Shown one piece after another: positions 10,122 to 11,821 of a DNA stretch of 30,591 nt. Numbering within the stretch: the stretch's first letter is position 1; each line of letters opens with the position of its first letter. This DNA is from a virus. The notes below the pieces were generated by a model, which was given only the letters and a program-made list of their open reading frames with translations, did not search any database and was not told where the DNA came from. The translations under genes were made by a program, and so were the position numbers. The stretch is from positions 1 to 30,591 of IMG/VR virus record IMGVR_UViG_3300035698_004683, one strand, 5' to 3'.

Positions 10122-10286
10122 ATGAAAATGGAAGAAGGATTTGTTAATCTTACCATCAGAATGAAAAAAGAGTTGATGGAAAAAATCGACTCAGCACGGT
10201 TTAAGGTCGCTGAAGGCTTTGAAATTAAGAAAGCCGAATTTGTGCGTCGGGCGATAGAAAAATTCATCAAAGAATTGGAAAAATGA
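10122..10286 (+). CDS. Ribbon-helix-helix (CopG/Arc-type) DNA-binding protein (54 aa)
   Basis: The short strand FVNLTIRMKKEL is followed by helix A (MEKIDSARFKVAEG) and helix B after the turn (IKKAEFVRRAIEKFIKEL), the classic RHH layout in which paired strands contact the major groove. A strong AGAAAGGAG ribosome site lies seven to nine bases before the ATG. It sits between the helicase and the replication initiator, directly behind inverted repeats, and so is a likely autoregulator of the replication operon. Its length is typical of Arc/CopG. Confidence 0.7.
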   Translation: MKMEEGFVNLTIRMKKELMEKIDSARFKVAEGFEIKKAEFVRRAIEKFIKELEK

Positions 10287-10351
10287 ATAAAAAAACCTAT
10301 GAAGAGTTAATAAAGATACCGGGAATCAGAGGGACACCCCAAGCGCTTTAA
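10283..10351 (+). CDS. Possible 22-residue leader peptide or microprotein
   Basis: ATG overlaps the TGA of the ribbon-helix-helix gene (ATGA) and the frame ends three bases before the initiator ATG, so ribosomes could pass from one to the next. The product runs from MNKKTYEELIKIPGI to a terminal TPQAL. It may serve only to couple translation of the initiator. No independent evidence that the peptide works. Confidence 0.3.
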   Translation: MNKKTYEELIKIPGIRGTPQAL

Positions 10352-10354
10352 ACG

Positions 10355-11044
10355 ATGCACCTTGGTTACATATCCCTTTACAGGAAGCTGTTGGACAACC
10401 CGAGGATAAAAGATCCTGATTGGTTGGCTGTATGGATCTATCTCCTGCTTAATGCCACTCATGCTGAATATGATGTTGTCTGGAATGGTGAACGAATTAC
10501 GCTAAGGCCCGGTCAGCTTATTACTGGAAGGCACGAAATATCAAAAAAAATGGGGGTGAATGGTTCAAAAGTATATAGATTACTAAAAAGGCTCGAAAGC
10601 GAACAACAAATTGAACAACAAACCTGCAACGTAAACTCCTTAATATCAATAACTAACTGGAAAGAATACCAGTTCACTGAACAGCATAGCGAACAACAAG
10701 TGAACAACGGGCGAACAACGGGTGAACATCCAGTGAACACTAACAATAATGTTAAGAATAATAATAATGGAAATAAGGATACCCCCATACCCCCTAAAAA
10801 AACAGTAAGGAAGAATTTTACAAAACCGGACACAAGCGAAACATTAATACTTTCAAGAGAGATGAACGTCCCAGATCAGGTTTGTTATGACTGTTACGAA
10901 TATTATGAATCGAACGGATGGAGGGTTGGAAGGAATCCGATGAAGGATTGGAAGGCAGCATTTAGAAGGTGGTTCAGGAAATACAAAGAAGACAACGGAA
11001 TGAATCGCACACAAACCACAACGGACTACTCAAAAGGATTTTAA
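10355..11044 (+). CDS. Replication initiator/primosome protein (lambda O / DnaD-like role)
   Basis: 229 residues. The N-terminal ~105 residues form a winged-helix domain; ITGRHEISKKMGVNGSKVYR (57-76) is its helix-turn-helix. An Asn/Gln-rich linker (109-141, incl. NNNVKNNNNGN) follows. The C-terminal part (157-212) holds 'CYEYYESNGWR...NPMKDWKAAFRRWFRKY', a segment common to DnaD/DnaT-like phage replication proteins. The linker-coding DNA contains the GAACAAC repeats described separately, as in lambda O. The DnaC-like gene follows four bases later, so the pair probably recruits host DnaB to the origin. There is no ribosome site beyond the preceding coupled frame. Confidence 0.75.
   Translation: MHLGYISLYRKLLDNPRIKDPDWLAVWIYLLLNATHAEYDVVWNGERITLRPGQLITGRHEISKKMGVNGSKVYRLLKRLESEQQIEQQTCNVNSLISITNWKEYQFTEQHSEQQVNNGRTTGEHPVNTNNNVKNNNNGNKDTPIPPKKTVRKNFTKPDTSETLILSREMNVPDQVCYDCYEYYESNGWRVGRNPMKDWKAAFRRWFRKYKEDNGMNRTQTTTDYSKGF
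10601..10778 (+). repeat. Iteron cluster plus AT-rich tract: putative replication origin inside the initiator gene
   Basis: Copies of GAACAAC(A/G)(A/G) start at 10601, 10613, 10679 (GAACAGCAT), 10691, 10702, 10713, 10724 (GAACATCCA) and 10735 (GAACACTAA). Spacing is 12, then 12, 11, 11, 11, 11 bases, close to one helical turn. Because 11 is not a multiple of three, the copies are read in different frames (Glu-Gln-Gln, Val-Asn-Asn, Arg-Thr-Thr, Glu-His-Pro), so the protein cannot explain the repetition. Right after the last copy comes an AT-rich stretch (~10740-10778, TAACAATAATGTTAAGAATA and on), a candidate unwinding element. The layout parallels ori lambda. Confidence 0.7.
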
Positions 11045-11047
11045 GCT

Positions 11048-11821
11048 ATGGACGAATTCAAAAAAATATCAGTTCCACACACCGGCTCGCCCGACCACCC
11101 GACTGGAGGGAAGTGCAAGATTTGCAAATGCGTTCTCCCTGAACCTTGGGGCGATCCTGAATCAATTGCGTTGAAGAAAAGGCTTGGGTTGATGATTCCG
11201 ATTACAACTTGCGACAAGTGCTATCGAGACTTGGCAGAAAACGAGATGAATAAAGCAAGCGAACAGGCGATGAAAGCAAGCGCCGATCAATGGGGAAGAG
11301 TATGCCCCGATGAATACAAAAAAGAGATCACGCTATCCATGATTGACTCAAAATCATATCATGAATCAGTTAAATGGCAATACAACTCAAGGGGACTTCT
11401 CCTTATCGGACCATCAGGAGAGGGCAAGACAAGGACGGTATGGAAAATCCTTAAACGGCAGTATCAGAACGGCAAGAGCTTCGAGTTTTATTCAGGCAAT
11501 GACTTTGGTAAGGTTGCCGCTCATGCAGCCCGCGAGGGTCAAGAGAGGGAGTTTACGCGCAACTTGACACATTACGTGGATATTCTTGTATTAGACGACC
11601 TTGGCAATGGGAAGATGACGCCTTTAATTGAATCAGAGTTGTTTGATATTATCGACAAGAGAATGAGCAATCATCGCCCGACCTTCGTAACAACTCAGTA
11701 TAATTCTGAATCACTGGCAGCGCGATTCCGGCTATCTCCAGAAATGACAGAAGCAATCACACGAAGGCTAAGAGAGAGTAGCAACGTGATTATATTTGGC
11801 AAGAGAACAACGAAGAGATAA
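11048..11821 (+). CDS. DnaC-like helicase loader ATPase
   Basis: 257 residues. The N-terminal region carries C23-x2-C26-x-C28 and C55-x2-C58, a probable zinc site. The AAA+ core has Walker A GPSGEGKT (121-128), Walker B DILVLDD (178-184) and a sensor I segment PTFVTTQYN; 'ITRRLRESS' near the end suits the arginine finger/sensor II region. DnaC/DnaI-type loaders open the DnaB ring and place it on the origin. It directly follows the initiator, the usual phage order. No phage DnaB-like helicase is present here, so it probably loads the host helicase. Confidence 0.85.
   Translation: MDEFKKISVPHTGSPDHPTGGKCKICKCVLPEPWGDPESIALKKRLGLMIPITTCDKCYRDLAENEMNKASEQAMKASADQWGRVCPDEYKKEITLSMIDSKSYHESVKWQYNSRGLLLIGPSGEGKTRTVWKILKRQYQNGKSFEFYSGNDFGKVAAHAAREGQEREFTRNLTHYVDILVLDDLGNGKMTPLIESELFDIIDKRMSNHRPTFVTTQYNSESLAARFRLSPEMTEAITRRLRESSNVIIFGKRTTKR

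Follow-up and report, generated by a model that had tools for sequence, protein, structure and literature searches.

A putative iteron origin within a phage replication initiator gene, with repeats that co-vary with the predicted recognition helix of the encoded protein

The replication initiator gene of the tailed phage considered here carries eight GAACAAC-type repeats, which are conserved in register among relatives, change in concert in all three reading frames, are linked to the N-terminal domain of the initiator, and co-vary with its predicted recognition helix. With a probability of roughly 0.86, we consider this array to be an intragenic iteron origin that is bound by the protein it encodes, a reading based on sequence comparison and on kinship with described phages. 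The array is very probably the binding site of the initiator; that it also acts as an origin, as its architecture and kinship suggest, is likely. The DNA analyzed, hereafter the window, is a viral record of 30,591 bases in the form of a linear contig. It contains genes typical of tailed phages, encoding a terminase (phrog_38), a portal protein (phrog_146), and a Mu-F-like head protein.

The iteron array and its surroundings

The eight copies are located between positions 10601 and 10741 inside the initiator gene (Table 1), and successive gaps measure 12, 66, 12, 11, 11, 11, and 11 bp. A recount thus bore out the preliminary description, which had reported eight copies with gaps of 11 or 12 bases and one 66-base gap splitting the array 2+6. 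Five copies are exact, two have one mismatch, and the last one has two. They lie in frames 0, 0, 0, 0, 2, 1, 0, and 2, respectively, so that the earlier statement that they occupy different reading frames and encode different residues (EQQ, VNN, RTT, EHP, and VNT) also holds, all three frames being used. Tandem Repeats Finder independently detected an 11-bp array at 10678-10739. The copies had been assigned to the code for the linker of the protein, which is correct for six of them, but copies 1 and 2 lie in the code for the wing of the winged-helix domain.

The array stops at 10741 and is directly followed by an A+T-rich stretch, as had been noted before. In 122 relatives, the 44 bp after the array have a mean A+T content of 76% vs. 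62% for the gene, and exceed the gene value in 112 cases. At the edge of this stretch, a perfect double copy of ATACCCCC is found (10779-10794).

Table 1. Features of the initiator gene and its neighborhood in the window.
Feature	Position	Strand	Remarks
Initiator gene	10355..11044	+	229 residues; phrog_2514 (E 1.8e-36) and phrog_186 (E 5e-18), both 'DnaD-like helicase loader'
Initiator domains (AlphaFold)			Predicted N-terminal winged helix, residues ~15-106; disordered linker, ~107-155; C-terminal helical domain, ~157-213
Code for predicted recognition helix	10562..10600	+	Residues 70-82; DSSP on AlphaFold model
Codon for residue 74	10574-10576	+	Tyr in the window; co-varies with iteron position 3
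Iteron 1, GAACAAC	10601..10607	+	Frame 0, EQQ, residues 83-85; wing code; same position in relatives
Iteron 2, GAACAAC	10613..10619	+	Frame 0, EQQ, residues 87-89; first wing strand; co-changes with the array in relatives
Iteron 3, GAACAGC	10679..10685	+	Frame 0, EQH
Iteron 4, GAACAAC	10691..10697	+	Frame 0, EQQ
Iteron 5, GAACAAC	10702..10708	+	Frame 2, VNN
Iteron 6, GAACAAC	10713..10719	+	Frame 1, RTT
Iteron 7, GAACATC	10724..10730	+	Frame 0, EHP
Iteron 8, GAACACT	10735..10741	+	Degenerate; frame 2, VNT; in relatives GAACACA/T, GACCACA/T, GCACACT
A+T-rich stretch, candidate unwinding element	10742..10785	.	75% A+T; 98th percentile of the window's 44-bp stretches
DnaC-like helicase loader, AAA+ ATPase	11048..11821	+	phrog_50 (E 2.9e-22); phrog_3277 (E 1.7e-17); IstB-like PF01695 (E 4e-13)

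The gene for a DnaC-like loader, which had been proposed to come next, is indeed present immediately downstream, as recognized by both phrog profiles and PF01695. Tandem direct repeats within the initiator gene, an A+T-rich tract beside the iterons, and an adjoining helicase or loader gene are all features of origins of the lambda O or P22/L gp18 type, and all three are found here. The repeat unit of ~11 bp, however, does not correspond to the 18-bp iteron of the lambda O type. A switch in GC skew at the initiator gene, which had been suggested as a check, was not found, the skew being positive nearly throughout positions 1-30591; this result is uninformative, since the recognizable genes are all located on the + strand.

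Upstream of the initiator gene, a short gene (10122-10286) encodes a 54-residue product that resembles ribbon-helix-helix regulators and is a possible regulator of the replication operon. A 22-residue reading frame, MNKKTYEELIKIPGIRGTPQAL (10283-10351), overlaps the end of this gene and directly precedes the initiator start.

The initiator protein

The match of the phrog_2514 profile spans residues 3-167, i.e., the N-terminal winged helix plus the linker, and places the initiator in the DnaD-like family. In the AlphaFold model, the block-mean pLDDT is 95-98 for residues 21-100 and ~50 in the linker, and the wing strands are formed by residues 86-90 and 95-99. Residues 83-89, which are encoded by copies 1 and 2 of the array, close the recognition-helix segment and include the first strand of the wing. 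The closest solved folds to the winged helix are the DNA-binding domains of the CAP type (Z 10.5, rmsd 1.7 over 68 residues), and fold searches led to the general winged-helix class, with CAP as the nearest member. Comparison with the Pfam family Phage_rep_org_N (PF09681) yielded 12.4 bits, which is under the curated cut-off of 23.3, while a search of NCBIfam gave no match and searches of solved structures by sequence gave no convincing relative.

The steps by which the array would work as an origin, from binding of the initiator to opening of the strands and recruitment of the loader, are inferred to be as follows. The N-terminal winged helix of the initiator would bind the GAACAAC iterons with one molecule per helical turn, residues 70-75 of the recognition helix, above all residue 74, reading positions 2-4 of the core. 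The eight bound initiators would line up along one side of the double helix, and the A+T-rich stretch next to them would open. The C-terminal domain of the initiator would recruit the DnaC-like loader that the neighboring gene encodes, and this loader would deliver the host DnaB-type helicase.

Chance and codon usage in the window

When up to one mismatch is allowed, the whole window contains 120 matches to GAACAAC, vs. 114.6 expected. As such words are not enriched window-wide, the signal lies in their clustering. The longest chain at a spacing of 11 or 12 bp has five members on the + strand, found in the initiator gene only, and one on the - strand, whereas 60 dinucleotide-shuffled versions of the entire window contain no such chain with more than two members. 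Shuffling of synonymous codons, by which the protein is kept, gave a different picture, with chains of at least five in 808 of 5000 shuffles (16%). In a second score, in which the spacer bases were counted as well, the array reached 38, whereas 25 codon shuffles averaged 23.8 and did not exceed 34. The window sequence by itself is therefore suggestive of DNA-level selection on the array, but not decisive. In the preliminary description, it was stated that selection must act on the DNA; given the 16% of codon shuffles that match the chain, this cannot be deduced from the window alone, but it does hold when relatives are compared (see below). Given the protein, the repeats are unsurprising, and what needs to be explained is why the protein has such a sequence.

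One answer would be that a Gln/Asn/Thr-rich linker is selected as such and that the repeats are a by-product without any function as DNA. Such linkers are common in this class of proteins and, as just described, 16% of the codon-preserving shuffles attain the same chain length. A repeat in the protein, however, cannot give an 11-bp period, and the comparison of relatives described below makes this explanation scarcely credible.

Conservation of the array among relatives

In a first scan with the N-terminal domain, in which the peptide EQQIEQQT, encoded by iterons 1 and 2, was among the seeds, 56 viral loci were collected, nearly all of which carry the array in the same register. This seed biases the sample toward repeat-bearing relatives, and the scan was redone in genome contigs and viral contigs with seeds located outside the array. 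In 97 of the 136 distinct genes of relatives, the linker array scores above all 25 codon shuffles of the gene itself, and the dominant pattern of gaps is 12, 11, 11, 11, 11. The core GAACAAC is also found in phage C996, and GAACAGC in Pseudomonas phage KLEP17-4. Several other named phages that are related by tblastn, i.e., TEM123, Pookie, phiAT3, PVL, Listeria phage 293, Sf6, and ST160, have one-turn arrays with other cores.

The copies within each gene change jointly, producing genes of the types GAACAAC, GAACAGC, GAGCAAC, GACCAAC, GACCAGC, GACCGGC, GACGGAC, GATAAAC, GCACAAC, and GGACAAC. A substitution of A by C at position 3, for example, as in L226 compared with the common type, converts EQQ, VNN, and RTT into DQQ, VTN, and RPT, respectively. 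In 18 of 89 register-identical genes, position 3 is occupied by one and the same base other than A in all four copies compared, which lie in three frames; when copies were shuffled among the 89 genes, a mean of 0.04 and a maximum of 2 such genes were obtained. Thus, the prediction that homologs would keep the spacing while the encoded residues change was borne out. Spacer bases also agree above the level of shuffles, but less strongly, which fits relatedness plus some homogenization. The converse case, in which the Gln/Asn sequence of the protein is kept without the repeats and which was named earlier as one that would argue against a role of the DNA, was not encountered among the relatives examined: genes that lack copies also lack the residues encoded by them. 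The comparison of relatives thus shows that the repeats are conserved as DNA rather than as protein.

These data bear directly on the possibility of a selected linker. A single base change that occurs in all copies turns Glu into Asp, Asn into Thr, and Thr into Pro in different frames. In view of such concerted changes and of the many arrays that score above their own codon shuffles, selection on the linker protein was rejected as the main cause of the repeats.

The array travels with the N-terminal domain and not with the C-terminal domain: the 116 genes with a GAACAAC-type array share one type of N-domain but span 36 sequence clusters of the C-terminal domain. An earlier study reported that winged-helix domains are shuffled among the replication initiators of phages (PMC10684548). 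Relatives found via the C-terminal domain of the window's initiator mostly have other N-domains, several of them with other arrays at 10-12-bp spacing; with their different N-domains and repeats, these relatives do not test GAACAAC itself. Two of them, L046 and L078, have linkers coded by 5-base units (AGAAC and AAGAT types) with a 10-base period (z > 5 vs. codon shuffles), which possibly represent another type of origin on a different N-domain. In the linker of L052, the repeat is 22 bases long and its two halves mirror each other (GGTGAAAA / TTTTCACC-like), so that it looks palindromic, as opposed to the directional iterons of the window.

Co-variation of the recognition helix and the iterons

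The mutual information between iteron position 3 and all positions of the N-domain was highest for residue 74 (z 8.8), the next position reaching 4.2. The core ACC is combined with Lys or Arg at residue 74 in 12 of 12 genes, AGC with Asp or Glu in 5 of 5, and GAC with Glu in 9 of 9, while with AAC residue 74 is mainly Gln (48), Glu (14), or Tyr (9, including the window). The idea of a code arose from the first batch of relatives, and all genes with ACC, AGC, or GAC cores that were found later fit it, although several of them are close kin.

Co-change was evaluated on a tree from which column 74 and the wing columns were left out. This tree is poorly resolved, with 10 of 107 inner branches starred, and an independent-pairs test on strongly supported branches offered only one or two usable pairs; therefore, parsimony was applied to the best tree and to 40 bootstrap trees. 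On the best tree, position 3 switches to C eight times, each time on a branch on which residue 74 changes to Lys or Arg (0.29 expected, P ~5e-5), vs. two co-changes for the best of 31 control positions. In the bootstrap trees, every switch of position 3 to C coincides with one of residue 74 (5 to 10 per tree), the best control reaching at most 4. For the pairing of G with Asp or Glu, the tree gave no significant result (P 0.2), since GAAC cores can be accompanied by Glu as well, and iteron position 6 showed no association with the presence of Asp or Glu at residue 74. Pairings that are usual between proteins and DNA are those of Arg with G, Gln with A, and Glu or Asp with C, taken across both strands. 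The data suggest a candidate code in which Gln and other residues go with A, Lys or Arg with C, and probably Asp or Glu with G at positions 2-3.

Two pairs of sister or near-sister initiators have different iteron cores and matching residues 74. In the pair L297/L295, these are R with GACC and E with GAGC, and in the pair L130/L133, of which the proteins are 84% identical, E with GGAC and D with GAGC.

The wing copies take part in these changes. In C-type genes of the window's family, the switch of the array extends to one or both of the wing copies, and in G-type (GAG) genes mostly to both. This behavior and that of residue 74 are relevant to the suggestion that slippage or recombination merely homogenizes the copies and that the repeats are retained chiefly as sites of crossover at which the C-terminal domain is swapped. 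In favor of such swaps, 36 C-terminal clusters are joined just past the array and initiator-domain shuffling is documented in phages (PMC10684548). However, homogenization leaves unexplained why changes of residue 74, which is not part of the array, fall on the same branches and why the wing copies follow the array. On these two grounds, it was rejected as the main cause and is considered very unlikely to account for the array, although it may act in addition to an origin function.

On balance, we lean toward the view that the binding site co-writes its reader, the array determining part of the wing and three frames of linker code and changing together with residue 74. On this view, helix and array would switch together and so give rise to new origin specificities, with the C-terminal domain being exchanged freely.

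Comparison with known origins

Intragenic iteron origins are already known from a few model phages. The closest precedent is gene 18 of the P22-like Salmonella phage L, which contains iterons of the type TGTCCAACGGA with 11-bp spacing inside the initiator gene and of which the repeat region was called a likely origin (PMC8022706). By tblastn, the initiator of phage L is related to the N-domain of the window's initiator. Copies of TGTCCAACG in phage L (locus L407, 1522-1607) start at 1522, 1533, 1544, 1588, and 1599, with gaps of 11, 11, 44, and 11 bp. The 66-bp gap of the window and the 44-bp gap of phage L are both multiples of 11 and would keep two groups of iterons in helical phase, although the coding length also fixes the gap. 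Unlike in the window, the core of phage L is different, the next gene encodes a DnaB-like helicase rather than a loader, and the C-terminal domain differs. Gene 43 of Shigella phage Sf6, of which the product is a relative of the N-domain as well, has an annotated repeat region in the initiator gene that is described as 'reminiscent of the phage lambda origin' and consists of 11-bp repeats of the GTCCAACGGTT type. Again, the core differs from that of the window, and the array of Sf6 is located entirely in the linker. In the records of both phages, putative origins are annotated at the 11-bp repeats. Sf6 and ST160, which are close relatives of phage L, lack iterons in the wing code, and it is by having such iterons that the window departs most clearly in structure from the examples described so far.

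In lambda O, the N-terminal domain binds the iterons and the C-terminal domain recruits. The origin in lambda gene O resembles the window in having iterons followed by an A+T-rich tract in the initiator gene and a loader gene downstream (PMC3349717; PMC7466680). It consists of four 18-bp iterons and a 38-bp A+T tract, as opposed to eight units of ~11 bp, one turn apart, in the window. Hence, the earlier proposal of a lambda-style intragenic iteron origin is, as judged from the relatives, the best-supported reading, but the closest precedent is provided by the 11-bp iterons of phage L gene 18 and Sf6 gene 43 and not by lambda.

In staphylococcal phage 80alpha, the initiator gene (ORF20) with its embedded origin adjoins a gene for a DnaC-like loader (ORF21), as in the window. 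Deletion of the 80alpha initiator gene could not be complemented in trans, and initiator and loader genes together suffice for autonomous replication (PMC5499656). Since its N-domain belongs to a different sequence family and its repeat measures 15/30 bp, unlike in the window, the genetics of 80alpha support the architecture but not the GAACAAC array. Within the annotated putative origin of 80alpha (L138, 1750-1871), 30-base repeats with TGGAAAAACCGTTAA units are found beside a TAA-rich tract. SPP1 is similar to the window by description: gene 38 holds its own origin, oriL (PMC5499656). A helicase of its own is also encoded by SPP1.

Binding of the array by the initiator could also serve autoregulation, in which the occupied repeats would stop or adjust transcription as it passes along the replication operon, with the origin located elsewhere. 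Concerted change and helix co-variation indeed point to co-evolution that is consistent with binding, without bearing on origin activity as such. Nevertheless, this alternative is unlikely: the sites are located mid-gene and not at a promoter, the A+T-rich tract comes after the array, putative origins are annotated in relatives that share this design, the initiator gene of 80alpha behaves as if it contains the origin, and the window contains no second GAACAAC chain.

A literature search, with subscription papers largely outside its coverage, yielded no description of the GAACAAC array or of an iteron-helix code. What appears to be new is the location of two iterons inside the code for the DNA-binding domain and the candidate recognition code between iterons and helix.

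Implications

The design of an intragenic iteron array, in which a single gene holds both the site and its reader, can be traced over more than 100 viral contigs. Therefore, each sequence reports a matched pair of protein and DNA, and such pairs make the specificity of winged-helix initiators directly testable by residue swaps. Origins of uncultured phages can also be annotated from the linker sequence, and the gene is an example of protein-coding DNA in which the requirements of DNA binding seem to dictate the amino acids in three frames simultaneously. If the proposed co-writing of site and reader is true, coupled switches of helix and array would generate mutually independent replicons, whilst swaps of the C-terminal domain would suit different helicase partners.
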